From: Rubidibacter lacunae KORDI 51-2
Lineage (GTDB): Bacteria; Cyanobacteriota; Cyanobacteriia; Cyanobacteriales; Rubidibacteraceae
Assembly: GCF_000473895.1 (NCBI RefSeq)
Contig: NZ_ASSJ01000008.1
Coordinates: 1 to 64,000 of the forward strand
DNA length: 64,000 bases
Direction of reading: 5' to 3'
Below the pieces are notes generated by a model that saw only the letters and a program-made list of their open reading frames with translations, was not told the origin of the DNA and did not search any database. Shown piece after piece: positions 15,497 to 30,005 of this stretch (position 1 is its first letter; every line of letters starts with the position of its first letter). The translations under genes were made by a program, and so were the position numbers.

Positions 15497-16153
15497 GCCA
15501 ATCGTCATAAATTGGTTTGGCGAGGCGGTTGGAGAAGATGGAACCCGAGGTCGAGGTGCGCTCAGCAGTTTCCAGGCGCTTGCAAACGTTCGCGCAAAGG
15601 ACGTGGATGCATCAGGTTTGGCGACTGCACTCTGAGCCAACCCTGCCCGAGCGATCGCCATGACGGCTGGAACCCTTGGAAACGCAAAAATTTATTACTT
15701 ACGAGGTTTTGCACGTCCTGAGACTTGCATGCTGGGTAGAAGGGGCAGACTTGCCCAGGACCCGAGTTAGTGTGAAGTCAAACGCTGAATCAAACACCGG
15801 CTCGAAGCTAGGCACACAGCTGCATTGTCATTTTCGGAGTTCGATTACCCTCTCTGCGTAAATTGAGATCGCCTCCAGTTGATGTCCTCACCCCGGATGC
15901 TGCATAGCTGCAGGATTCCCCAACAAAACGACGATCGTTAGTGAATTTTTATCAAGGACCATTATTTATAAAGTGAGGTATCGGTCCGGGGATTGTTAAC
16001 GGCTGTAGAAGTCGGCATCCCCATTGATAGCAGCGAGGATAGATGGACCAGTTATTTTCTATCTGCTCGACTGCTAAGTGCTAAAACGCGATCGCGTAGG
16101 ATTGGAGTGAGTCAATCTTCTTCTCACTACCACGAAATCTTTTCCAATTCTCC
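15497..16153. other. Intergenic region between sufS and msrP
   Basis: No gene is recognised in these 657 nt. Short open frames exist but lack similarity or ribosome sites. An AT-richer stretch with TTTATAAAG near 15960-15975 could belong to an msrP promoter. Confidence 0.35.
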
Positions 16154-17140
16154 ATGGCTTTTCTGCACGTGCCTTCTGGTTGGCAACTCCCCGAGCGAGC
16201 CGTAACCTCTGAAACCGTTTACTTCAACCGCCGCCGTTTCCTCAAGGGAGTTGTCGGCGCGAGCATTGGCGCAACCACCGTTTCCCTTGTCGGTTGCCAA
16301 AAGAACTCCAAAGCCCAATCGGCACTCCAGATGACCCTGGATTTGCCGGAGATCGAACCCCTAAGCACCAACCCCGCCTTTGCTCAAGTAGATCGCCCCG
16401 TAACAGATCGCCTGCTGGCCGGTCAGTATAACAACTTTTATGAATTTGGCGGCAACAAAAGTATTTGGCCCCAGGCACAAAACCTGCCGACCGATCCTTG
16501 GGCGGTAGAAGTGACTGGCTTGGTTCGGAAACCGCGCACGTTCGACCTCGACGACCTGAAACGCGAGTTTCCAGTCGAGGAGCGTATTTACCGTTTCCGC
16601 TGCGTCGAAGCGTGGTCGATGGTGTTGCCTTGGGTCGGCATCCCAATGCGAGCGCTCGTTGCTGCCGTCGAGCCGACTGCCAACGCAAAATACGTTCGCT
16701 TTACATCGTTGTACGACCCTGAAACTATGCCCGGACCGGGATTCCACCTGGGCTCTTTGCCTTGGCCTTACACAGAAGGGCTGACCCTCGACGAGATGAA
16801 TTCAGAAGTAGCGTTCCTCGCGATCGGTATTTACGGTCGAGAGTTGCCCAAACAGCATGGAGCACCAGTACGCGCAGTGCTGCCCTGGAAGTACGGATTC
16901 AAAGGAGGGAAGTCAATCGTCAAGATCGAGTTTCTGGCCGAGCAACCGGCAACCTACTGGAATACGCTCGCTCCCAATGAGTATGGTTTCATCGCCAACG
17001 TCAACCCGACGAAGCCCCATCCGCGCTGGTCGCAAGCAACCGAAAAATTCATCAGTACCGGTCCCGACTTGTCCTGGGATATCGTGGAAACGCTGCCATT
17101 TAATGGCTACGGCGAATACGTCGCACACCTCTACCCATAA
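16154..17140 (+). CDS. msrP: Protein-methionine-sulfoxide reductase catalytic subunit MsrP (YedY)
   Basis: This molybdopterin enzyme reduces oxidised methionine in exported proteins. The 328-residue precursor has a twin-arginine signal (FNRRRFLKGVVGA, about residues 25-37) and a hydrophobic stretch ending near VGCQKNSKAQ. The sulfite-oxidase-fold domain has the molybdenum-ligating cysteine in RFRCVEAWSMVLPWVGIPM. HGAPVRAVLPWKYGFKGGKS and YWNTLAPNEYGFIANVNP are conserved. Export folded via Tat to the periplasm is expected. The haem-binding partner MsrQ is not adjacent, so the electron donor is not shown here. Confidence 0.95.
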   Translation: MAFLHVPSGWQLPERAVTSETVYFNRRRFLKGVVGASIGATTVSLVGCQKNSKAQSALQMTLDLPEIEPLSTNPAFAQVDRPVTDRLLAGQYNNFYEFGGNKSIWPQAQNLPTDPWAVEVTGLVRKPRTFDLDDLKREFPVEERIYRFRCVEAWSMVLPWVGIPMRALVAAVEPTANAKYVRFTSLYDPETMPGPGFHLGSLPWPYTEGLTLDEMNSEVAFLAIGIYGRELPKQHGAPVRAVLPWKYGFKGGKSIVKIEFLAEQPATYWNTLAPNEYGFIANVNPTKPHPRWSQATEKFISTGPDLSWDIVETLPFNGYGEYVAHLYP

Positions 17141-17208
17141 CGCGATCGCGATCGACGCCACCAAGAGCCTCCGCTCGGTTTAGCGCTGCTGGGGCTCCCA
17201 CAGTATGC

Positions 17209-17737
17209 TCATTTGCATAGGGCATTCGAGACTAGCTTTTGCTCGATCGAAGCGTAAGGTTGAATATCTAATGCCTTGTGGACGCCTGGAAAGCTCCAGG
17301 GTAGTTCGCGAGGGCAGTGTGACACAGTCTCATGCCGTGCCACACTCCGAAGTGAAGCGGTGTGAGTTCGACCGCATGCTGGCAGTCTCACGGGATTTGG
17401 GATAGTAGCCGCGAGTGAAGTAGAGCACGGCCCGGCGATTCCAAGCTGCAGCAAAGTCTGGGGTTTCGGCCGCGATCTCGCTCAATAGCGCTTCCGCTGC
17501 TTCCGGATCGCTCGCGTCGAGCGGAAATTGCGCCCGACGGAGCTGCTCGATGCCCCACACGCCTTTCTGTTGGAACCAAATTCGCCACAACTGAGCTGTG
17601 GCGGGCAGGCGGATCGATTCGTCAGAATCTCTGAGGTTTACCATGAGGCGGCCGACCAGACGATCTACTATCTCGGTAGGAGAAGTCTTCACCTTCCTTT
17701 GTGAAAGCCTTGCCTTGGTTCTGCCCGTCCTCGGCAA
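17209..17737 (-). pseudogene. TPR protein gene broken by two frameshifts
   Basis: The first frame (17737 to about 17370) encodes PATAQLWRIWFQQKGVWGIE and AWNRRAVLYFTRGYYPKSRE, a TPR-type protein. After RE the homologous reading jumps one frame: DCQHAVELTPLHFGVWHGM then LCHTALANYPGAFQ continue without stop. It jumps again to HKALDIQPYASIEQKL in the frame that ends at TGA 17209-17211. Both jumps are explained by loss of one base each. Restored, it would be about 176 residues of tandem TPR repeats, a common cyanobacterial protein of unknown partner. The decay could be real or could be assembly error. Confidence 0.75.
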
Positions 17738-17903
17738 CCAACGGTTTGGGAGTTCTTGGCGACGTTCTATGCTGTTAGGCCGTAACTGCCCTCACAACAC
17801 CTGCCCCCACGACAGATCTTGCCCCCACAACTGATGTGGAGGCGAAGTCGGAGCACCAAAAAAGTTTATTGGGTGCCTTGCTCCGCGACAGCGATGATAG
17901 GCG

Positions 17904-18131
17904 TTATGATTCGCTGGAATCGCGATCTTTTTCGACGTCAGGTAACCAATCTGGGCGTTCTTGACCTTCCCAACCGGGCGGACGCTTCGAGTTGTACCAA
18001 GCCAGCGAGCCGATTGTGACAGCGGCAATGAAGCCGACGACATACACGGCTGTAAACCAGACCGGAAAGCTGCCGTCAGCAGCAGCCTCAGCTTGCATGA
18101 GATGCATAAATAATTGCGATACTGATGTCAT
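17904..18131 (-). CDS. Small single-span membrane protein, probably Psb35-like
   Basis: This 75-residue protein has one membrane helix (FTAVYVVGFIAAVTIGSLAW) followed by YNSKRPPGWEGQERPDWLPD and an acidic tail. This layout recalls the cyanobacterial photosystem II assembly factor Psb35 (Ssl2148 in Synechocystis), which stabilises the CP47 module. The identification is from memory of the motif and not certain. It is alone on the minus strand between the TPR pseudogene and ruvB. Confidence 0.55.
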   Translation of the reverse strand: MTSVSQLFMHLMQAEAAADGSFPVWFTAVYVVGFIAAVTIGSLAWYNSKRPPGWEGQERPDWLPDVEKDRDSSES

Positions 18132-18308
18132 TTTGTTCGTTATCCTCTAAGTGGCGACCGCATAGTACCAAAGCCAAGAGTTTCGAGCTTCCATCAAGGG
18201 ATTGAGATTGCCGCGCGTAACATCGAACTCTGTCAGTCGATAGCACCGCGCGCACCCGGTCGTTGGTGAGTCCTGCAGTGAAGACGCGCTCCATCGTCAG
18301 TTGGGCGC

Positions 18309-19400
18309 CTAACGATAGCCGAGGTGACGCATGGCTGCCTCAGTCACCACGCGCCCGCGCGGCGTGCGACTGAGAAACCCGATTTGAAGCAGATAGGGTT
18401 CGTAAACGTCTTCGATGGTTTGAGCATCCTCGCCCGTGGCCGCAGCAATTGCGTCCAAGCCTACTGGTCCGCCGCCGAATTGCTGGATAGCAGTCTGCAG
18501 CACGGCGCGATCCGTCCAGTCCAAGCCCAGGGGATCTATTTCGAAGAGTTCCAGCGCGTCGGCCGCGATCGCGCGATCGACCGTACCCAATTCCTTGACT
18601 TGCGTAAAGTCGCGCACGCGCTTGAGCAAGCGATTGGCTACGCGCGGGGTGCCGCGCGCCCGGCGGGCGATTTCTAAAGCACCATCGTCGGTTACGGGCG
18701 TTTCGAGCAAGGCAGCCGTACGGTGCACGATCTGGCTCAACTCATCCGTATCGTAGTAACGCAAGCGCTGGATCATCCCAAACCGATCGCGCAGGGGGGA
18801 AGTGAGCGCTCCAACGCGAGTTGTTGCCCCAATGAGGGTAAATGGCGCCAGGGGAATGCTGCGCGTTCGGGCGCCTTGACCTTTGCCGATCGTGATGTCA
18901 ATGCGGCGGTCTTCCATTGCCGGATACAACAACTCCTCGGTCATCCGATTGAGGCGGTGGATCTCGTCAATGAATAGGATGTCTCCGGGGTTGAGACTGA
19001 CGAGCAAACCGGTAATGTCGCGCGGGCGCTCGAGCGCGGGTGCTGCTGTAATGCGACAGTTGACGCCCATCTCTGCGGCGAGGATCAGTGACATCGTCGT
19101 CTTGCCGAGTCCGGGCGGACCATACAGTAACAAGTGATCTAGAGCTTCGCTGCGTCCCTTTGCAGCGCGAATGGCAATATCGAGCACATCTTTGAGGTCT
19201 TTTTGACCGATGTAGTCGGACAAGCGGCGCGGACGAATCGATTCCTCCGCACCACTGGTCGTTTCGGCTGGCGTGGCTTCGGGCGCGATCGTCGCATCGC
19301 GGGGCACTCGCGATCGCGACGACATCTCGGGCACGGGGGACGCTGCCGGTGCGGCAGAATGAGGAATGCCGGGAAGGTCTGAGGAGCGTTTGATGGCCAT
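18309..19400 (-). CDS. ruvB: Holliday junction branch-migration helicase RuvB
   Basis: This is the AAA+ motor that, with RuvA, drives Holliday junctions in recombination repair. It has 363 residues. An N-terminal extension of about 55 residues, rich in Pro/Ser/Ala, precedes the conserved [11 protein letters not shown]. Walker A is [11 protein letters not shown] and Walker B is LFIDEIHRL. The sensor/arginine region is [18 protein letters not shown]. The C-terminal winged helix ends [21 protein letters not shown]. Divergent from hisF with about 58 nt between starts. Confidence 0.98.
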
Positions 19401-19458
19401 CGGAATGCCAAACTCGGCGCGATATGCGTACGTAGGAACTACATTTTAAGGCCGTGAC

Positions 19459-20229
19459 ATGTTATCAAAACGAATTGTGCCGTGCTTGGATGTTAAAGCC
19501 GGGCGCGTGGTCAAAGGCGTAAATTTTGTTGAGCTGCGCGATGCAGGCGATCCGGTGGAACTGGCGCGCGCCTACGATGCTGCTGGTGCAGACGAACTCG
19601 TGTTTCTCGATATCACTGCAACCCATGAGGAGCGCGGCACGATTCTCGACGTCGTTTACCGTACGGCAGAACAGGTGTTTATACCACTCACGGTTGGTGG
19701 TGGTGTATCCAGCTTGGACCACATCAAAAACCTCCTGCGCGCCGGTGCCGATAAAGTTAGCATCAACTCCGCTGCCGTCCGCAACCCGGATTTTGTTGGC
19801 GCAGCTGCCGATCGCTTCGGCAACCAATGTATCGTCGTGGCGATCGACGCCCGCCGGCGCGAGGATCCCAACCGACCCGGTTGGGACGTCTACGTGCGCG
19901 GCGGCCGTGAGAACACGGGCATTGACGCGTTGGAATGGGCGCAAGCGGTCGAAGCTCGCGGTGCGGGCGAGTTGTTGGTCACCAGTATGGATGCCGACGG
20001 CACACAGGCCGGGTACGACCTAAAGCTGACGCGCGCGATCGCCGAACGCGTGCAGGTACCGGTCATTGCATCGGGCGGTGCGGGTACGGTCGAGCACATT
20101 CGCGCGGCTCTCGTGGAAGGGCAAGCAGAAGCCGCACTGCTGGCTTCGCTGCTCCATTACGGTCAGCTCACCGTGGCAGAAATCAAAACTTACCTGGGCG
20201 ACCGCTGCGTTCCGATTCGTGCGACCTAG
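19459..20229 (+). CDS. hisF: Imidazole glycerol phosphate synthase cyclase subunit HisF
   Basis: HisF closes the imidazole ring in histidine synthesis using ammonia from HisH, releasing AICAR for purines. It is a 256-residue TIM barrel. The catalytic aspartates are in [14 protein letters not shown] and [13 protein letters not shown]. The phosphate-binding loops are GGGVSS and [11 protein letters not shown]. Length and ends are normal. It is divergent from ruvB. No other his gene except hisS is in the window. Confidence 0.98.
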
Positions 20230-20262
20230 AACCCAGATGCGACAGCCGGCAAGCGCACTTTT

Positions 20263-20298
20263 AACAAGGCAATTAACCCCACTCAAGGCAGCCTTGTT
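20263..20298. terminator. Hairpin downstream of hisF
   Basis: AACAAGGC (20263-20270) and GCCTTGTT (20291-20298) form an 8-bp perfect stem with a 20-nt loop 34 nt past the hisF stop. There is no T-run, so the terminator role is tentative. Confidence 0.4.
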
Positions 20299-20385
20299 GA
20301 ATCTGAAGAAAACCTGCCGTTCTCTTCCAGGCATCAACCTCAGGTGTAATATATTGAAAGAAAGGATGTTATATTTCGTTACAAA

Positions 20386-20568
20386 ATGCTGTCTTTTGTG
20401 CTCGTGCTCGATGTGGCGCTGGTTGCCTGGTCGCTCCACTTAATGGAGTCGGCGTTCGCGGAGCAGGAGTTTTCGCTGGTGCTGGCTGGAACCCTCGTGG
20501 CCCTGTCGGCTGTTGCGATCTTGGTGTCTTACTTGTTGATGGGACATTGCTTGGGGTATTTAGCTTGA
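20386..20568 (+). CDS. Small hypothetical membrane protein
   Basis: This 60-residue frame encodes two hydrophobic helices (FVLVLDVALVAWSLHL and LVLAGTLVALSAVAILVSYLL) joined by an acidic turn. The ATG at 20386 is preceded by AT-rich DNA with AAAGGATG, so a promoter or ribosome site nearby is plausible. The even hydrophobicity and sensible start support a real gene, but no family is certain. It sits between hisF and the DHH gene, which is convergent. Confidence 0.55.
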   Translation: MLSFVLVLDVALVAWSLHLMESAFAEQEFSLVLAGTLVALSAVAILVSYLLMGHCLGYLA

Positions 20569-20647
20569 GAAAACACCGCGCCAATATCGCTGGTTAGGGC
20601 ACGTGCGGAAGGGGCCGGCCCTCTACACAGACATTCAGTACAGACAC

Positions 20648-21934
20648 TCAGTCAGTTTGGATGACGCGATCGTCCGTGCCGATCGCGCGCATGAGCTTCT
20701 GCTTGACCTGGGTATCGAACACATCCCACTTGAGCTGGGCGTACTGCGGGCGATCGTTAAAGCCATAGAGAAAGCCGATCTGCACTTCGAAGCCACCGGC
20801 CATGTAACGACCGCCCCCGAAATAGCGACCTTGCGTATCTCGTCCTAAGGCTTCCTTGATAAACTCGTCCGGATCGAGCGTCATTTTATTCGTCCGTAAA
20901 GAGCCAATCAACACTTCAACTTCGGCATCTTCACTGTGGACGATGCCATACACCACAGCGGTGTGGACGTTTTCCTCAGTAACAAGAAAGTCCGCCACCT
21001 GAGGGATGGCGTCGCGGTCGTCGTAACGCAAGTAACCGACCCCAGCAATGCAAAAGCCATTGTGGATGTAGCGGTTGCGCAGCGATCGCTCGATCGCGTC
21101 CATAACGCGCTTCGAGCGCGCCGATTTCAGCACCGCGTTCAGTAATTGTGCATCGTAGAACCGGCTGAGATACGCTACTGCCAAGTAATCTTCCTCGCGT
21201 GCTTGCAGCAAGGAGTTACTGTCGGAACGGATGCCGTGCATCAATGCGGTTGCACATTTAACGTGTTTGGTATTACCGGTATCGAACTGCAGTAAGCCTG
21301 CTTGTAAGTACTGAGTTAACATCGTCGCCGTTGCCCGCGTTTGGGATCTCAGATCTGCGAACTCGGCAGCGAGATCCCCTTGGTGGCTGTGGTGGTCGAT
21401 GACGGCAACTATCGGTAGGTTTGCTTTCACGACCAGCGGCATGAGCTGACTGGTCGTACCTTGGCTGTCGATCAACACGCAGCCCGCATAGGGGGATAGG
21501 TCGCGTTCGCCAAGGGTATTGGCACCCCAACGCTTGGCTGGCAAACCCGTCAGCTTTACGAGCGCAATGTTCTCTTGGTGCGAGAGAGTACCCGCATAAA
21601 CAATCTCGCACTGAATCTCGTACTGCTGGGCGATGAGCTGAAACGCCCACGCACTTGATAGCGCGTCCGGGTCTGGGAAATCTTGTAGCGGCAGTAACAG
21701 GCGCTCGCCTCGATGGCGGCCGAGTAGCTCGTGTAGGTTGTTGACGAGCCGCGTCAGCGCTGCATTTTCCGGAACGACAAAGGTCAATGCTGCTGCGACT
21801 GCTGTTTCGGACTCCGGGAAGTTCCATGAGGAGCTAACTTCCGGATGCGCGACAGCCATCCCGTTTGCGCGAACCTTCTGGGTCACCGCTCGGTCTTCAG
21901 AATTGACACCGGATTTGTGCGTGTTTGCTGGCAT
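20648..21934 (-). CDS. DHH family phosphoesterase (NrnA/oligoribonuclease type)
   Basis: This is a predicted cytoplasmic nanoRNase/pAp-phosphatase type enzyme. The DHH domain has LLLPLQDFPDPDALSSAW, CVLIDSQGTTSQL and AVIDHHSHQGD, supplying the metal-binding aspartates and histidines. The C-terminal DHHA1 domain ends with the substrate loop GGGRYMAGGFEVQIGF. The chosen ATG at 21932-21934 gives 428 residues. The frame opens at a TTG seven codons earlier. The N-terminal segment of about 60 residues is variable. Known relatives hydrolyse short RNAs or pAp, and which of these applies here is not shown. Confidence 0.88.
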   Translation of the reverse strand: MPANTHKSGVNSEDRAVTQKVRANGMAVAHPEVSSSWNFPESETAVAAALTFVVPENAALTRLVNNLHELLGRHRGERLLLPLQDFPDPDALSSAWAFQLIAQQYEIQCEIVYAGTLSHQENIALVKLTGLPAKRWGANTLGERDLSPYAGCVLIDSQGTTSQLMPLVVKANLPIVAVIDHHSHQGDLAAEFADLRSQTRATATMLTQYLQAGLLQFDTGNTKHVKCATALMHGIRSDSNSLLQAREEDYLAVAYLSRFYDAQLLNAVLKSARSKRVMDAIERSLRNRYIHNGFCIAGVGYLRYDDRDAIPQVADFLVTEENVHTAVVYGIVHSEDAEVEVLIGSLRTNKMTLDPDEFIKEALGRDTQGRYFGGGRYMAGGFEVQIGFLYGFNDRPQYAQLKWDVFDTQVKQKLMRAIGTDDRVIQTD

Positions 21935-22234
21935 CTTGGCGAGTGCAGATGGCAAAGGCCTCGCAGCAGCTTAAAAGAGTGCGAAGAGCCACCGACATAT
22001 TACTTTTGTTTAACCAATCTAGCGCCTGGAGCCGGTTGATTTCTAGATCGGGCGGCGATCGACGCCGGTACCGACTATACTTGGGCGACTCAGAAGCGAG
22101 TGATGGTCGGTCCAGAACCACGAGTTTTGGGCTGACGAACGCCACCGAGCGCGGTCGAGGAAATTCACTGACGGGGTGAAGACGGTCTCCGCGATCGCCC
22201 CAAAATACAGGACACTTGCAGAGTTAATACCAAA

Positions 22235-22505
22235 TCAAAGAATTTTCGCGACAGATAGAGCGTCGAGAATGAAGTCATAGCCCGAGAGCGCAGCCATAAC
22301 CTCTGGGGTGAGTTCCTCGAGCAGCTGCACGAGCTTGCTCTCCAGCTGCTCCAAGTCCTCAAACACTTCCCAGTGCAAGTCTCGCTTCAGGTGCTGCCAC
22401 ACTCGCTCGGCGGGATTGAGTTCAGGACAGTACAGCGGCTGGAATAGCAGCATCACGTTTTCTGAGAACTCCAGATTCTTGGCAGTATGCAGGCGACCGA
22501 TATCC
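22235..22505 (-). pseudogene. IS630-family transposase, C-terminal remnant
   Basis: The last 88 or so residues (GRLHTAKNLEFSENVMLLF, CPELNPAERVWQHLKRDL, through to ALSVAKIL) match the DDE-domain end of IS630 transposases, including the final catalytic Glu in NPAERVW. Everything upstream of about 22505 in this frame is unrelated sequence, so at least two thirds of the gene is gone. It abuts the broken dynamin-like gene on its right, which suggests the IS landed in or next to that gene and was later truncated. Confidence 0.8.
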
Positions 22506-22552
22506 ACGCGATCTCTTTTGCTCGGTCGGGCCCGATTTCGGGAGGTTAAACG

Positions 22553-23477
22553 ACATTCGAGGCGATTACCCGACAAAATTACGCTGCTCGCGACCGTAAA
22601 TCTACGGAAATTGCCAACTCATTTCACGACTTGGTTCTTGGTTTTGGCGATGCCTTTGAGGCCGATTTTCTGAGCTGGCAGCCCGACATCAATTCCTTTG
22701 ACTTCCTATCGTCTGGTAAGCATGCCGAATTCGAAAGTGGGCCGCGAAAAGCGTTCGAACAATACCAGAACGATAAGCATTCAACTGGTCGCTTGGTGCC
22801 GAAAAAGAAATGGACGCCCCTTTCGCTCAATAGACCCGGAGGACCATGAGCTACGGGGCGTCCTACACTCGGGTGACAGACAGAATCACTGAAAAACTTA
22901 CCGGTCAAAAAGTTCCCCCATTGCCCGGTTATTCTCCAGAAGTTGATGCACCTACGTGGGCAAAGTGAGTGGTAGGTATTTTTTTACTTGCGCGCGGAAA
23001 CAATTCAGGTGTGGCAATAGGAAGTACGGGCTTTGACTGGAAAAACATCATCCTCAACTTTATTTCCGTGCTAGAGATTGCTGGCTTGGTCACCGCGATC
23101 GCCGGTTTCGTAATAGGTCCCCGATTGGGCTGGCGCTGTTGGGGATGGGAGGTGGTGGGTTGCAGGTAGACCAAGGGCGTGGAGAACTCTTTAAAGCCGC
23201 CAAGAAAAAAGTTTTGAGCTATCTACCGCAGGTGGCGCAGCAGCAGTATGCTGTAGTCCGAATGCCGCCTGTGAGTGTTTCGACACTTACGAGCGAGTAG
23301 TGTCGGATCTCATAAAGTTCGAATATCCGCGCTCGTAAAGCGGGACTCGAAAATCTCATCACTCAGATAGAATCGCGCGAACTCGATCGCGTCACAGACA
23401 TGGATCGCCTACATCAGCTAGAACGCAACGTAGACGAATGTGTCCACGAGAACGAAGCAGCAAACAGAGTTTCCTAG
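22553..23477 (+). pseudogene. Bacterial dynamin-like GTPase gene, C-terminal wreck
   Basis: Reading across frames gives a continuous dynamin-like C-terminal region: ITRQNYAARDRKSTEIANSF, FLSWQPDINSFDFLSSGKHA, then (frame jump near 22807) EMDAPFAQ, a TAG at 22831, MSYGASYTRVTDRITEKLTG, a TGA at 22966 where Trp is expected, FDWKNIILNFISVLEIAGLV, (jump near 23120) PIGLALLGMGGGGLQVDQG, (jump near 23270) CECFDTYERVVSDLIKFEY, (jump near 23336) KAGLENLITQIESRELDRV to TAG 23475. These proteins remodel membranes using an N-terminal GTPase domain, which is absent here. Four frameshifts and two stops make it non-functional. It is flanked by IS630 and IS66 fragments. Confidence 0.75.
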
Positions 23478-23499
23478 CAGCCGATCGATCGTGCAGATG

Positions 23500-23847
23500 T
23501 CATACGGATGTTGACAGTGGCGCGAGTGGCACGCCACAGCGGTCGAAGTGAACGAACCCCTTGCGAGTTTTGCCAGGATGACCGGGTTGTCCGCCCGGTC
23601 GGCGCGGTGGGGGGTCGGAGGTCGGCTTGGGTTTGACCGGGTTCTCTAAGCGCTTGATGAGGTCGCTGGAAGGGAGCTTCGAGGAGGTCTGGGAGTCAGA
23701 ATCGAGCAGACGTTTGAGGCGTTCGACCGCGGCGACGAGCTGCTCGATAACTTGCTGCTGCTGACGAAGCAAGTCAATCAATGCCGACTTGGGCATCTGC
23801 TCGAGAGCATCGCGGTCTTGAGGGAACTCGGGCAATAGCGGTGTCAT
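23500..23847 (-). pseudogene. IS66-family transposase, N-terminal fragment
   Basis: The 115-residue frame has the IS66 TnpC head: a leucine/glutamine-rich coiled coil (ALIDLLRQQQQVIEQLVAAV), then SSKLPSSDL and the zinc-finger-leading GGQPGHPGKTRKGF, after which homology stops. The catalytic domain is missing, so this is a remnant. It ends 22 nt from the dead dynamin-like gene. Confidence 0.8.
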
Positions 23848-24051
23848 GTCCTCAAGCTACCTTCACAGGTGCACTTGTCAAGCCCCTCACCTGAATCCTT
23901 AACTTTGAAACAAAGGGCGTGGGAGTTTCTCCTGATTTAACCGCTCTAAACTTTCATAACGTCCGACCCCAAGCATGGTGCAGAATGTCACTTAAGTAGC
24001 TAGCGACAAACGATAGTTTAGGATCGCTGCCGAAGCGACAGAGTGGTGTTG

Positions 24052-24504
24052 ATGCGGGTTGTAGTGCAGCGGGTAAGGGCGTCGCAGGTAACAATAGCCA
24101 AAGAAACGACCGGTGCGATCGCGCGGGGGCTGATGTTATTGGTTGGGATTGCACCAACGGATACGGATGCCGAGCTTGCATGGATGGCGCGTAAATGTTT
24201 GTACCTGCGGTTGTTTCCGGGAGAGGATGGCACGGCGTGGGCGCGGTCGGTTGCCGATATCAGCGGTGAGTTGCTGGTGGTCAGCCAGTTCACGCTGTAC
24301 GGGGACTGCCGCAAGGGACGGCGACCATCGTTTATCGGCGCCTCAACACCAACCGTTGCCGAGGCACTGTACGATCGCTTCGCGGAGTTGTTGCGAGCAA
24401 GCGGGCTGCGCGTGGCGACGGGTAAGTTTGGTGCGGACATGCAGGTTCGCATCGACAATGACGGACCCGTAACGCTCTTATTAGAACGCGAGGCCGGCAC
24501 ATGA
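24052..24504 (+). CDS. dtd: D-aminoacyl-tRNA deacylase
   Basis: Dtd removes D-amino acids (and glycine mischarged on tRNA-Ala) from tRNA. The ATG at 24052 gives 150 residues starting [15 protein letters not shown]. The active-site strands are [19 protein letters not shown] and the Gly-cis-Pro-type motif [10 protein letters not shown] near the C-terminus. Upstream in-frame GTG codons are possible but not needed. The stop overlaps the start of the DUF3288 gene by four bases. Confidence 0.96.
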
Positions 24505-24779
24505 AAGATCAAGAACATCCGCGATCGCGCCAAGACCGTGATGTCGTCAATCGCTTATTGCGGGACGGTCCGACGGAGGCAAACTTAATCGACCTGGCGC
24601 GGTTGCGCATCCGATACAATGGATTTCCTGGCGCACGTGCTATCCAACGCGACCTCGATCTGCTGTTACAGCAGTGGCAACTGGACGAAGACAGTCTGTT
24701 TGCCCGCACGCGTGCCCTATACGTCAGCCGCAATCTGCAAGGGCATTCTTCCCTCACCGACGAGCAGGATTGGAGTTGA
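24501..24779 (+). CDS. DUF3288 family protein
   Basis: This 92-residue soluble, helical, charged protein contains [19 protein letters not shown] and [20 protein letters not shown], which fit the small cyanobacterial DUF3288 family. Function is unknown. The ATGA overlap with dtd implies translational coupling, so a role linked to translation quality control is possible but not shown. Confidence 0.85.
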
Positions 24780-25153
24780 GAACTGGGGGATGCAGCAGTC
24801 ATGCTATTCAGATCCCGCAGTTCAGTTTCGCACTCGAACCCGATAGCCCAACTCCAACGGCGCGTTCAACAGTTCCTGTGAATTCAAACTCCCAAGGTCT
24901 CGTTACGTATAGTGCGCTGCAAGCTCCAATCCAGAGTCGCGCTCCGGAGCAAAATTTCCCAAAACATGACTATGTGGTGCGTCTAAGCGTGGTGAGTGCA
25001 GTTGGGATTCCTACACCAAACACCACCGTAGTGTAATCGCCAGAACAACTGCGAAAACTGCAAGCGCGATTGGTGGGGGGCGAGCGAAAAATCACTCCGT
25101 TGCGTCGCCGGTTGGACGCGCGCGACCAGCCAATCTGATGCCCAAGCTACGTT
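24780..25153. other. Intergenic region after DUF3288 gene
   Basis: No confident gene is present in these 374 nt. A plus-strand frame ending near 25036 reads ALEPDSPTPTARSTVPVNS and HDYVVRLSVVSAVGIPTP, protein-like but without a start of its own. It may be the tail of a lost gene. Confidence 0.3.
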
Positions 25154-25831
25154 CTAAGGACGCAAGTATTTGATCGCGTGTTGGATGCGATAGTACGCAG
25201 CGTCATTGCCCTCGGCGCGAAAGATTTCTCCCGCTTGCTGCAAGTCGTTAACCGCACCCGTGTAATCGTGCAGCTTGGCACGAGCAAAACCGCGATTGCC
25301 CAGCGCCTGAGCGAAGTCGGGTTTGCGGTCGATCGCGCGCGTGAAGTCGGCGATCGCGTCTTCGAACTTGCCGAGATTGAGGTACACAAGTCCTCGGTTG
25401 TAGTACACGTCCGAGAGGCTGGGGTCGACCGCGATCGCGCGGTCGTAATCGGAAATCGCACCGATGTAATCTTCGAAGCGTGCCCGCGCTAGCCCGCGAT
25501 TGCCTAGTGCCTTTGCGAAGTTTGGATCGATGGAAATCGCTTCTGTAAACTCGTCAATTGCCTGTTCGTAGTCACCCGCGCGCACGCTATCTTCGCCTGC
25601 TTCGAACAGTGCCTCCGCCTTCTCACGTGCAGGCGAGCCTTCGGGAAGCGATTGTGCCAGTTGGGTTTTGATATTCCCTTTAATATTGTCTTTGGTATTG
25701 GCTTTGAAATTGTTTTTGCCGATAGATAGCTCCTCAGTAGCCGGATCGAGTGAGGTAGAACTACAGCTTGCGAGCGCAAGCGCGGCAACACCAAGGAACA
25801 TCACTAAATAATGTCGGGCGAACATAAGCAT
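25154..25831 (-). CDS. TPR-repeat lipoprotein
   Basis: The ATG at 25829-25831 gives 225 residues with a lipoprotein signal: hydrophobic YLVMFLGVAALALASC, with the lipobox LASC, followed by CSSTSLDP. A linker with repeated KxNxKxN units (FKANTKDNIKGNIKTQ) leads to four TPR units (about 80-215): GDYEQAIDEFTEAISIDPNF, EDYIGAISDYDRAIAVDPSL, GKFEDAIADFTRAIDRKPDF and HDYTGAVNDLQQAGEIF. It is a membrane-anchored scaffold for protein contacts. Partner unknown. It is monocistronic by position. Confidence 0.85.
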   Translation of the reverse strand: MLMFARHYLVMFLGVAALALASCSSTSLDPATEELSIGKNNFKANTKDNIKGNIKTQLAQSLPEGSPAREKAEALFEAGEDSVRAGDYEQAIDEFTEAISIDPNFAKALGNRGLARARFEDYIGAISDYDRAIAVDPSLSDVYYNRGLVYLNLGKFEDAIADFTRAIDRKPDFAQALGNRGFARAKLHDYTGAVNDLQQAGEIFRAEGNDAAYYRIQHAIKYLRP

Positions 25832-26021
25832 TACTAACAGCAACAGTATCTCACAAGCTTATCAATACTCTTTTCCTAGGGTTTCCCGCCCAATCACCCC
25901 AGGAAATGTCATAAAGTCGCTTTCGCACCGTCAATGAAGTTCAATCCTAACCTTATTACACATTCCACGTCCCATCTCGTATTCGAACGATTGGCTTTCA
26001 GAGGATTAGAAGGTCTGAGCG

Positions 26022-27119
26022 TCAATCCAACTTCGAGCGCTGGCGCTTGCGTCTCAGGGAGGATACGGTCAAAACTCCAAGGGTCACTCCTGTCAGCGGA
26101 AGTGCGAACCCTAGCATTGCGGCGCTAAACATGGGCAATTGCTCGTGCTGCGTCGAGTCCAAGATTAAAAATGCTACGTACGCCAAATAGTAGAGGAGGA
26201 AGAGGCCGCCTTCCCAACGGCTGATCTGGTTGCCCGTGACGAAGATCGGCAAGCAGGCAACGGCGACGGCAATCATGATCGGAATGTCGAGGTTGAGGGC
26301 CGGATCCGATATCGCAACACCGTTCGGCGCAACGACGCTGGCAAGACCCAAGACAGCTAGGATGTTGAAGATATTGCTACCAACTACGTTACCCACAGCA
26401 ATATCGCGTTCGCCGCGTAAGCTCGCAACCACCGAAGTCGCCCCTTCCGGTAGGGACGTTCCCAACGCCACAACGGTCAAACCAATAACCAATTCGCTGA
26501 GCCCGAACGAGCGCGCGATCGCCGTGGCACCGGTCACCAACCAGCGAGAGCCGAACAGCAGCAACGCCGCTCCGCCGAAAATCAAGCCCAGATCCTGGAC
26601 CCACTCTCCAGTTGAGGCCGACTCTGGCAACGCAACTTCGGCAGAGTCGGGATCGTTAGGGTCGCTCCTACGGCGACTTTGGTGGAGAAGAAACCAGGTG
26701 TAAACGATTGCGCCCACGACAAACAAAATTCCGTCCGCGCGATCGATCGCGCCATCGAGTCCGAACATCAACATCAATACCGACACGCCGATCATGATCG
26801 GCACGTCCAGGCGTACCAACTGCTGCTGCACGATTAGCGGAGCGAGCGTTGCGGAAATTCCTAAAATCAGCAGGACATTGCAAATGTTACTCCCGACAAT
26901 GTTGCCAACCGAGATCCCGGCCTGGGCTGTAAAATTCGCGCGCAGACTGACCGCCAGCTCAGGAGTACTCGTTCCATAGGCAACCACCGTCAGTCCGATC
27001 GCGAGCGGGGAAATTCCTGCCAAGGCTGCCAGCCTTGCCGCACCGCGCACCAGTAGCTCGGCACCCGCAATGAGCAGTACCAAGCCGATGGCGAACAAGG
27101 CAACGTCTGAAAAGGTCAT
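26022..27119 (-). CDS. Calcium/sodium antiporter, CaCA family (YrbG type)
   Basis: This inner-membrane cation exchanger of 365 residues has about ten membrane spans. Two alpha repeats carry the ion-binding motifs: GLTVVAYGTSTPELAVSL with VGNIVGSNICNVLLILG in the first half, and GLTVVALGTSLPEGATSVV with VGNVVGSNIFNILAVLG in the second. A hydrophilic loop lies between (about residues 145-180). The chosen ATG at 27117-27119 begins MTFSDVALFAIGLVLLIAG. The frame opens 40 codons earlier, but that part is basic and unlike the family. It likely exports Ca2+ against Na+ or H+. Confidence 0.93.
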   Translation of the reverse strand: MTFSDVALFAIGLVLLIAGAELLVRGAARLAALAGISPLAIGLTVVAYGTSTPELAVSLRANFTAQAGISVGNIVGSNICNVLLILGISATLAPLIVQQQLVRLDVPIMIGVSVLMLMFGLDGAIDRADGILFVVGAIVYTWFLLHQSRRRSDPNDPDSAEVALPESASTGEWVQDLGLIFGGAALLLFGSRWLVTGATAIARSFGLSELVIGLTVVALGTSLPEGATSVVASLRGERDIAVGNVVGSNIFNILAVLGLASVVAPNGVAISDPALNLDIPIMIAVAVACLPIFVTGNQISRWEGGLFLLYYLAYVAFLILDSTQHEQLPMFSAAMLGFALPLTGVTLGVLTVSSLRRKRQRSKLD

Positions 27120-27587
27120 GGCTGTTTGTCGAAGTTGTTGCACCAACGTCGATCGCAGGCGGGTCCGGTTGCGGCAGACAAGACTCTCGCCCCTGGTGCC
27201 GTCGCCCAAGCGCTTCATTATACTAGGCAACTGTCGCATACTCGCTTGTCACTGCCGTCCGTAGTAGGCAACCACATACTTGGAATCTCAGCTCAATTTT
27301 CGCAATAAGCGCGGCTCGACCGGGGCTTGTTGAGAGCAAAACTAAGTTCAAGCACTCCAGATCGCTGAAACCCCAACTCGGTCGTGGCACATAAATCAGG
27401 ATGTGTTTGCCCTACCGTCCGTCGCCCCCTTGCGGATACTCGACCAAGAGCAACTGCCCCGACCGCCTCAAGGAATAACTGCAGGGGACGTTTGCCCTAA
27501 ATGTATTGAAACGAGCAGCGCGCGCGAACCGCTCGACACGTGCGACGATATCGTTATCTCGGTTCTCAACAAGTTTCTAGCTAGCTC
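27120..27587. other. Divergent intergenic region of antiporter and rmlA
   Basis: These 468 nt hold repeat copy A (27267-27414). The remainder (27415-27587) is the rmlA upstream region. I see no gene. Confidence 0.45.
27267..27414 (+). repeat. Dispersed intergenic repeat, copy A
   Basis: This stretch aligns along its length with 52117-52268 in the same orientation. Shared blocks include GGAATCTCAGC, TTTTCGCAAT, CTAAGTTCAAGC and CAGATCGC. Over the best 58 bases I count about 45 identities. It lies upstream of rmlA and the antiporter, in non-coding DNA. The family is unknown to me. Confidence 0.65.
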
Positions 27588-28661
27588 ATGAAAGCGCTCA
27601 TTCTGTCTGGCGGCAAAGGAACGCGTCTGCGTCCTCTGACCTACACGGGAGCCAAGCAGCTCGTGCCAGTCGCGAACAAACCGATCCTGTGGTACGGCAT
27701 CGAGGCGCTCGTGGCAGCGGGGATTACCGATATTGGTATTGTCATCAGCCCCGAAAGTGGTGACGAAGTAAGGGCGAAGACCGGAGACGGCAAGCGCTTT
27801 GGCGCACAAATTACTTACATCCGTCAAGATAGCCCGGACGGACTCGCCCATGCCGTCAAGGTGGCGCAGCCGTTTTTGGGCGACTCGCCGTTCGTGATGT
27901 ACCTCGGCGACAACCTGATTCAAGGCGACCTCGCTGCACTGCTGAACGACTTCAAAACCCGTACTCTAGCAGCGACCATTTTGCTATGTCCGGTCCCGAA
28001 TCCGACTGCATTTGGCGTTGCCGAGGTAGGTGCGGACGGGCGCGTGCTGCGGTTGGTGGAAAAGCCGAAGGTGCCGCCCTCGAATCTGGCGTTAGTGGGT
28101 ATCTATTTCTTTTCAGCAGTCATCCACGACGCGATCGCGGACATTTCGCCTTCAGCACGCGGCGAGCTAGAAATTACCGACGCCATTCAGTGGCTGATCG
28201 ACCGCCAAGCCTGCGTGGAAGCCTGTCAGCTACGAGGCTGGTGGCTCGATACGGGCAAGAAAGACGATTTGCTGGAAGCCAATCGCGTCATCCTCGATAC
28301 GCGCCTGCAAACCGCAATTCTCGGCGAGGTGGACGCGCAATCCAAGGCAACCGGTCGAGTTCGGCTCGGGGAGGGCTCGCGGCTCATTAACTGCACGGTT
28401 CGCGGTCCGGCCATCGTGGGCGCGAACTGCCATCTCGAAAATTGTTTCATCGGTCCCTACACCAGCATTGCCGACGACGTTCGGCTGGTGGATGCGGATA
28501 TCGAGCACAGCGTCATTTTGGCGGGTGCGAGTGTTGAAGGCGTCTCCGGCCGCATTGTCGATAGCTTGATCGGCCAGCGCGCGTCTCTGACAACCGCCCC
28601 CCGTCGTCCGAAGGCGATGCGGCTCATGATCGGTGACGACTCGAAGATCGAGTTGATCTAG
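27588..28661 (+). CDS. rmlA: Glucose-1-phosphate thymidylyltransferase, long form
   Basis: This enzyme makes dTDP-glucose (or a related nucleotide sugar) from sugar-1-phosphate and dTTP for rhamnose and other deoxysugars. The 357-residue protein belongs to the long RmlA/StrD-like group. The nucleotidyltransferase domain begins with LILSGGKGTRLRPLTYT and holds YLGDNLIQGDL and GWWLDTGKKDDLLEANR. The C-terminal part (about 240-357) is a left-handed beta-helix (NCTVRGPAIVGANCHLEN). It follows the surface-sugar theme of the region and precedes a GT2-GtrA protein. No rmlBCD is in the window. Confidence 0.92.
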   Translation: MKALILSGGKGTRLRPLTYTGAKQLVPVANKPILWYGIEALVAAGITDIGIVISPESGDEVRAKTGDGKRFGAQITYIRQDSPDGLAHAVKVAQPFLGDSPFVMYLGDNLIQGDLAALLNDFKTRTLAATILLCPVPNPTAFGVAEVGADGRVLRLVEKPKVPPSNLALVGIYFFSAVIHDAIADISPSARGELEITDAIQWLIDRQACVEACQLRGWWLDTGKKDDLLEANRVILDTRLQTAILGEVDAQSKATGRVRLGEGSRLINCTVRGPAIVGANCHLENCFIGPYTSIADDVRLVDADIEHSVILAGASVEGVSGRIVDSLIGQRASLTTAPRRPKAMRLMIGDDSKIELI

Positions 28662-28684
28662 TCGATCTAAGGACTAGGGTTTTT
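28658..28684 (+). terminator. Rho-independent-type terminator of rmlA
   Basis: CTAGTC (28658-28663) pairs with GACTAG (28672-28677) around an 8-nt loop and is followed by GGTTTTT. The stem overlaps the rmlA stop codon. It is short, so strength is uncertain. Confidence 0.5.
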
Positions 28685-28817
28685 CAGCTGCGACAACACG
28701 AAAAATCTTGCTGGCACCCAGCTGACGAGGTTTCGCCGCCAGCACGAACCCACAGTCCGACCGCCACCGAAACTGACGGAGGCAGATTCGGGCCGCTATC
28801 ATCTAGCGCGAATCCAG

Positions 28818-30005
28818 ATGGATCTACTGCCACCACCGACCGGACCACTTGCGATCGCTGCCGAGCCGCTTTTACCCGCTGCCGCTGCCCACTCGCCGTT
28901 GGTGCTATCGGTCGTTCTCCCCACCCACAATGAAGCGGATAATCTCCAAGCAGCCATCGACCAAATCACTCAAGTTCTCGAGGATATTCTGCCGGGAGCA
29001 TACGAATTAATCGTCGTCGACGACGACAGCCCAGACGATACTTGGCAAGTGGCGCAGAAGCTGAGCGATCGCTACCCGCAACTGCGGGTCGTGCGCCGAA
29101 CGGGCGAACGGGGGTTGTCGTCGGCCGTGGTCCGCGGCTGGCAAGTTGCGCGCGGCGACGTGTTGGGCGTCATCGATGCCGACCTGCAACACCCACCGGA
29201 GCTGATGGCGAAGCTATGGGCTGAAATCGCACGAGGCGTAGATCTAGCAGTTGCCAGCCGCCATATTGAAGGCGGTGGTGTTAGCGACTGGAGACTTCCG
29301 CGACGCTTCCTGTCGCGGGGAGCGCAAATATTGGGGTTGATCGTCCTGCCGGGGGTGCTCGGGTGCGTGTCAGATCCGATGAGCGGCTACTTCATGGTCC
29401 GCCGCAAGTGCCTGCTCGATCGCGAACTCAGTCCGATCGGCTACAAAATCCTGATTGAAGTGGTGGCGCGCGGTCGCGTGGCTTGGATCGGCGAGGTCGG
29501 TTACGTTTTCCAAGAACGCCAGGCTGGCGAGAGCAAGGTGTCGCACCGTCACTACATCGACTACATCCAGCATTTGGTGCGCCTGCGCTTCGCGCTCTGG
29601 CCGGTGCAGCGCTTTTTGCGCTTCGGCATCGTCGGCTTCAGTGGCGTCTTCGTCGATATGGGAGCGTTCTACGTGCTGCGCGATCTCCTCGGACTGGGAT
29701 TAACTCGAGGCGCGATCGCCTCTGCCGAACTCGCCATCTTCAACAACTTCGTTTGGAACGATCTTTGGACTTTCGGCGATATTTCAGCACGGCAGCGCGG
29801 TTGGCGATCGCGGCTGAAACGCTTGGTGAAATTCAATCTCGTTTGCCTGGCCGGATTGATCTTGAACGTACTGTTGGTCAATCTGCAATTTAATGTGTTC
29901 GACGTTAACGAGTATTTGGCTAAGCTCGTGGCGATCGCGGCCGTGACGCTCTGGAATTTCTGGATCAACCTCAAGCTCAACTGGCGCGTCACCGAATCAC
30001 CGTAA
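28818..30005 (+). CDS. DPM1-like glycosyltransferase fused to GtrA domain
   Basis: This 395-residue membrane protein has a GT2 domain (about 30-260) like polyprenyl-phosphate mannose/glucose synthase: SVVLPTHNEADNLQ, LIVVDDDSPDDT, GVIDADLQHPPELM and DPMSGYFMVRRK. A GtrA-type four-helix membrane domain follows (about 270-390): FLRFGIVGFSGVFVDMGAF, NNFVWNDLWTF and NFWINLKLNWR. It would make polyprenyl-phosphate-linked sugar and may flip it for surface glycan decoration. A region of about 25 Pro/Ala-rich residues precedes the catalytic domain. Confidence 0.92.
   Translation: MDLLPPPTGPLAIAAEPLLPAAAAHSPLVLSVVLPTHNEADNLQAAIDQITQVLEDILPGAYELIVVDDDSPDDTWQVAQKLSDRYPQLRVVRRTGERGLSSAVVRGWQVARGDVLGVIDADLQHPPELMAKLWAEIARGVDLAVASRHIEGGGVSDWRLPRRFLSRGAQILGLIVLPGVLGCVSDPMSGYFMVRRKCLLDRELSPIGYKILIEVVARGRVAWIGEVGYVFQERQAGESKVSHRHYIDYIQHLVRLRFALWPVQRFLRFGIVGFSGVFVDMGAFYVLRDLLGLGLTRGAIASAELAIFNNFVWNDLWTFGDISARQRGWRSRLKRLVKFNLVCLAGLILNVLLVNLQFNVFDVNEYLAKLVAIAAVTLWNFWINLKLNWRVTESP

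Follow-up and report, generated by a model that had tools for sequence, protein, structure and literature searches.

Introduction

The closest described counterpart of the locus analyzed here is BDLP of Nostoc punctiforme, a membrane-remodeling bacterial dynamin represented by the structure entries 2j68, 2j69 and 2w6d, the latter two of which are assigned to that organism in the accessible part of PMC9950537. According to the available text of PMC6104087, bacterial dynamin genes occur mostly as operon pairs, and the portion of PMC5827413 at hand remarks that no dynamin-like protein conserved across all cyanobacterial species was found. Rubidibacter lacunae KORDI 51-2, a member of the Halothece cluster, is a marine cyanobacterium; according to the accessible sections of its genome report (PMC3910548), it was sequenced by 454 only (GS-FLX Titanium, 30x, Newbler assembly) and contains 283 pseudogenes. 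The assembly amounts to 4,153,658 bases in 99 contigs. Here, we analyzed a window of 64,000 nucleotides (the whole stretch, positions 1 to 64,000 of contig NZ_ASSJ01000008.1) in which a sequence-only reading had recognized a dead dynamin-like gene between two IS fragments. A literature search for dynamin pseudogenes in cyanobacteria, judged by title and abstract opening, returned none.

Results

Identity and extent of the dynamin remnant

At 22509..23477 (+ strand) lies what is left of a BDLP-type bacterial dynamin gene, its C-terminal half in a decayed state, as identified by PF21808, by tblastn with relatives and by a match to 2j68. It corresponds to approximately residues 372-690 of a 693-residue BDLP-type protein (about 320 codons) and is closed by a stop codon at 23475-23477. 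The match to relatives becomes clear at about 22568-22589; from 22522 up to there it is weak, though collinear, and the remnant perhaps begins at 22509. Pfam places PF21808 (Dynamin-like_hel_bact) in the open reading frames at 22631-22849 (1.4e-11) and 22969-23169 (5.3e-10), and a whole-genome scan (E <= 1) returned three pieces over the cut-off (1.5e-27, 4.6e-17 and 1.5e-14), all within the window; the pieces in the remnant span profile positions 97-373 of 373, and the same scan revealed no second PF21808 locus in the assembly. Compared with solved structures (E <= 0.001), the block at 22786-23121 matched one distinct sequence, that of 2j68/2j69/2w6d, at 1.6e-29 over chain residues 459-571. 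Relatives from the same order (Cyanobacteriales), used as tblastn queries, matched the remnant in collinear pieces that change frame, with single pieces reaching 147 bits, against a best piece of 27.7 bits in 200 mononucleotide shuffles of the remnant region. The C-terminal dynamin identity proposed by the sequence-only reading is thus borne out, and all three peptides that it had named are present in the remnant: EMDAPFAQ at 22807-22830, FDWKNIILNFISVLEIAGLV at 23032-23091 and KAGLENLITQIESRELDRV at 23337-23393.

Frame changes, stops and lost residues

Three blocks of the remnant, all on the + strand, are firm. The helical-domain block (22589..22783, residues about 395-459) is identical to the intact relative L041 at 41 of 74 residues, in an alignment that reaches 22810. 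The best-kept block (22786..23121, residues about 461-572), delimited by tblastn with relatives, carries two in-frame stops and is 60% identical to L036 and 58% to L041 (112 residues), and 63% identical to L065 (113 residues); other relatives score lower, L046 being the lowest at 40%. The C-terminal stretch (23118..23465, residues about 572-690) matches at 30-41% identity (tblastn), with a doubtful middle that reads either as two stops (TAG, TAA) or as a short block shifted to a different frame. Two further blocks, at 22522-22593 (24.3-26.9 bits, tblastn) and 23261-23320 (27.3 bits, tblastn), do not exceed the best shuffle (27.7 bits), so both rest on collinearity; the latter, which reads ECFDTYE, rests also on its C, F and Y, which are invariant columns among the relatives. 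When all six blocks are read, the remnant contains 5 frame changes and 2 in-frame stops; when the two weak blocks are omitted, it contains 2 frame changes and 4 stops, as the TAG and TAA of the last piece are then counted. The 4 frameshifts and 2 stops reported previously fall within this range: the stops agree with the six-block reading, and the number of frameshifts differs. With 2-5 frame changes and 2-4 stops, the remnant does not form one open frame of about 690 codons.

Conservation was assessed in an alignment of the remnant with 80 named relatives, which are the best 80 of 197 loci encoding a relative. Open frames of 650-760 codons are present in 79 of them; L066 (WTKN01000165.1, about 910-1881), from Moorena sp. 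SS36440bin_2, has a dynamin open frame of only 402 codons and may be broken or misassembled. The 80 relatives share 81 invariant columns; the remnant can be read at 79 of these and has the invariant residue at 59 (75%). In a leave-one-out control, each of the 80 relatives keeps at least 96% (median 100%). Similarly, of 120 columns with conservation of 95% or more, the remnant retains 86 (72%), and the relatives retain no fewer than 93%. Its best identity to any relative is 53%, compared with 54-99% (median 65%) for pairs of relatives, and its end branch is 1.2 changes per column long in the tree described below, where the median is 0.029. GC3 is 0.52 in the remnant (807 bases, four longest blocks) and 0.63-0.69 in seven neighboring genes. 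The decay claimed for this gene is therefore confirmed by frame breaks, by stops and by the loss of 20 of the 79 readable invariant residues.

The flanking IS fragments

Elements of the IS630 family encode a DDE transposase, carry terminal inverted repeats and use a TA target, and those of the IS66 family combine an IS66 transposase with terminal inverted repeats. Immediately left of the remnant, 22227..22508 (- strand) comprises the outer end and transposase C-terminal part of an IS630-family element (DDE_3 in the open reading frame 22235-22576, 4.4e-8). The fragment retains 282 of about 1160 bp, the full length being taken from the alignment of the copies L005 and L006 (1171 columns), and breaks off within the transposase gene at 22507/22508, the point at which the dynamin sequence starts. 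It is 91-92% identical to copies on contigs C4 and C46 and 83% identical to a copy on C35. Its outer end reads TACCAAATC and adjoins TA, and the opposite end is absent from this fragment; both ends are present in L005, where each begins TACCAAAT, and in L006 the TA was not seen. A further copy, L004 (G000:C46:23919-24192), is seemingly another short end fragment, as its match to L005 extends over 331 columns, compared with 1171 for L005/L006.

To the right of the remnant, 23531..23901 (- strand) comprises the outer end and transposase N-terminal head of an IS66-family element (DUF6444 in the open reading frame 23500-23847, 1.1e-7). This fragment of 371 bp ends 53 bases from the closing stop of the dynamin and is 93% identical over 23531-23901 to a copy on contig C12 (L002), the product of which matches DDE_Tnp_IS66. 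Both flanks are accordingly what they had been taken for, the C-terminal piece of an IS630 transposase on the left and the N-terminal head of an IS66 transposase on the right. Each fragment keeps its outer end and is cut within the transposase gene on the inner side, facing the remnant. Insertion followed by decay, as put forward originally, fits this layout and is incomplete as an account of it: because both elements are cut on the remnant side, insertion alone is insufficient, and deletions starting inside each element would give the arrangement seen.

The missing GTPase half and the other dynamin of the genome

The GTPase domain occupies residues 77-243 in an intact relative, and this N-terminal domain (PF00350) is absent beside the remnant. 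A matching N-terminal half was not found elsewhere in the assembly, either with L041 residues 1-370 as query against the genome, which produced four brief alignments, led by one of 44 residues to the dynamin on contig C55 (2.6e-4), or in a Dynamin_N scan, which gave 29 genome matches at E <= 1 with the C55 protein as the best; the profile also gives matches in 14 of 14 control genomes. Neither an intact copy nor the GTPase half, each of which the sequence-only reading had allowed for elsewhere in the genome, is thus found in the assembly.

Contig C55 (G000:C55:115143 region; L012:1288-3444) encodes an intact dynamin-superfamily protein of 719 aa that is distant from the remnant. It matches 5owv over 54 residues (1.3e-7), and PADLOC gives matches to LeoBC (5e-11) and LeoA (4.4e-9). 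It has no PF21808 match and is not the source of the remnant.

Relatives, gene pairs and placement

Of 291 sampled genomes of the order, 114 contain the PF21808 domain (E <= 1e-10), a count that includes the KORDI 51-2 remnant. Within the family, a search with an intact protein as query found the BDLP dynamin gene in none of the eight other genomes examined, one of which is 85% complete. A weak PF21808 match in a genome of a sister genus (G006; 19.8 bits, below the cut-off) was considered as a second remnant and rejected, there being no significant dynamin match (tblastn E <= 10, best 0.037); the stretch holds an open frame of 249 aa, which we take to be a PspA/IM30-like coiled coil.

A second dynamin, defined as an additional tblastn hit to L041, apart from the main match and within the flank examined, accompanies 71 of the 80 named loci (the best 80 of 197), in agreement with the statement on operon pairs in the available text of PMC6104087. 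Among the 11 loci nearest to the remnant, six show a second dynamin, so the former presence of a pair is not certain. The closest named row by identity (53%, among the best 80 of 197) is Hydrococcus sp. Prado102 (L065), the downstream copy of which matches the best block of the remnant at 62.8% (147 bits), compared with 37.5% (80 bits) for the upstream copy. The remnant probably derives from the downstream gene of such a pair. A contig labeled Candidatus Gracilibacteria (L083, JAAUUT010000006.1) also carries a dynamin pair, and the downstream copy there differs very little from the Hydrococcus sp. Prado102 one (end branches 0.039 and 0); inclusion of the contig in this metagenome-assembled genome is probably a binning error.

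The tree contained 86 rows, namely the remnant, the 80 named relatives and five further loci; the distant L047-L050 were left out, as were other rows, some of which duplicate named records (L041 and L059, for instance, show 100% identity across the query). The remnant groups with Hydrococcus, Prochloraceae, Pleurocapsaceae and Crocosphaera at weak support (79/96), its long branch making it hard to place, and good support is first reached for a set of 20 rows (97/93) that also takes in Moorena and Coleofasciculus kin. Of 72,556 plasmid records, 8 are matched by L041, two of them across 80% or more of its length; these near full-length relatives are on NZ_CP083583.1 (Kovacikia minuta, 54.6% identity to L041) and CP150887.1 (Aphanizomenonaceae TIOX110, 49.0%), and mobility of the BDLP dynamin gene via plasmids is possible. 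With the open reading frame 22969-23169 as the only query, no relative was found among 23 pattern-matching stretches of viral contigs.

The neighboring genes are at 20648-21955, presumably DHH-type, which is one frame without stops, most of it alignable to all 8 of the relatives compared, and at 24043-24504, presumably D-tyrosyl-tRNA deacylase-like, which was likewise located in relatives. Including KORDI 51-2, the left gene was found in nine of nine genomes and the right gene in eight of nine. In the seven relatives with both, the two genes are far apart on one contig in two and on different contigs in five. None of the seven shows an empty or intact ancestral site, the five being less certain owing to contig breaks; with no comparable site the original locus is not shown, and vertical descent with loss is not separable from gain then loss.

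Discussion

We consider the locus an ordinary pseudogene, at a probability of roughly 90%: a BDLP-type dynamin gene that lay between IS630 and IS66 elements, was halved by deletions starting inside them and then decayed. A cyanobacterial BDLP-type dynamin gene would have become flanked by an IS630 element on the left and an IS66 element on the right; deletions from inside each would have taken away the partner gene, the upstream half of the dynamin gene itself and the inner parts of both elements; and the leftover portion would have accumulated frame changes, stops and substitutions. We infer the order of these events, IS-adjacent deletion as their mechanism and the former pair membership from the layout of the locus and from its relatives.

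A variant history, the odds of which overlap those of the pseudogene reading and which we judge unlikely, is that the fragment arrived already broken, by horizontal transfer or IS-mediated rearrangement, and never worked here. The gene's absence from the other family genomes, the flanking genes, for which adjacency was not observed in the relatives examined, the few plasmids that carry relatives and the lower GC of the remnant (51% against 57% for the whole window) all speak for such an arrival. However, decay itself would also be expected to lower GC, and the tree, although weakly (79/96), places the remnant with the cyanobacterial groups named above and with no far group. We regard as quite doubtful a broader reading, in which the BDLP pair has been given up throughout the Halothece-cluster family, the C55 dynamin perhaps standing in for it in Rubidibacter, and the remnant captures that loss under way. 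The sequence-only reading had suggested that the loss could be lineage-specific; as the eight other family genomes examined also lack the gene, the loss may be older and family-wide with a lingering remnant, or the gene may have been gained and then lost in this lineage.

That the frame breaks are mostly 454 errors, the true sequence being a longer open C-terminal fragment, appears very improbable. The data are of the kind in which this could occur (GS-FLX Titanium, 30x, Newbler), and of the five frame changes, two (including a firm one, with CCCC at 23119) have a four-base homopolymer run in the stretch inspected around them, so some frame changes may be read errors; the stretches inspected at the other three have no run of four, and the neighboring gene at 20648-21955 is read in one frame. 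Sequencing errors do not account for the missing GTPase half, the in-frame stops or the loss of a quarter of the invariant residues. Least credible of all is a short C-terminal fragment that is still made and active, for example as a hypothetical membrane-binding or interfering peptide: open reading frames of 72 and 66 codons do remain in the remnant, but such frames are common (84 of at least 60 codons overlap 16000-30000) and conserved residues are being lost.

Taken as a pseudogene, the remnant is one more IS-associated example in a genome for which 283 are already given in the accessible sections of PMC3910548. Its value is modest and evolutionary, as the trace of a BDLP dynamin in a lineage with none of eight other genomes carrying the gene, which fits the remark on dynamin conservation in the portion of PMC5827413 at hand. 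If the loss were family-wide, it would amount to a natural knockout in which the role of the pair in cyanobacteria could be studied.

Compared with BDLP of Nostoc punctiforme (PF21808 and PF00350), the remnant shares the PF21808 helical neck/trunk domain, over the cut-off, but lacks the GTPase domain and, with its frame changes and stops, cannot make the protein. The GTP-binding protein of 5owv/5oxf, which we take to be the Campylobacter jejuni dynamin-like protein, has the dynamin superfamily in common with the remnant, although its match in this genome is the C55 protein. Hydrococcus sp. Prado102 carries a tandem pair with open frames, whereas KORDI 51-2 carries a single remnant with no partner, to which the downstream copy of the Hydrococcus pair is the better match of the two.
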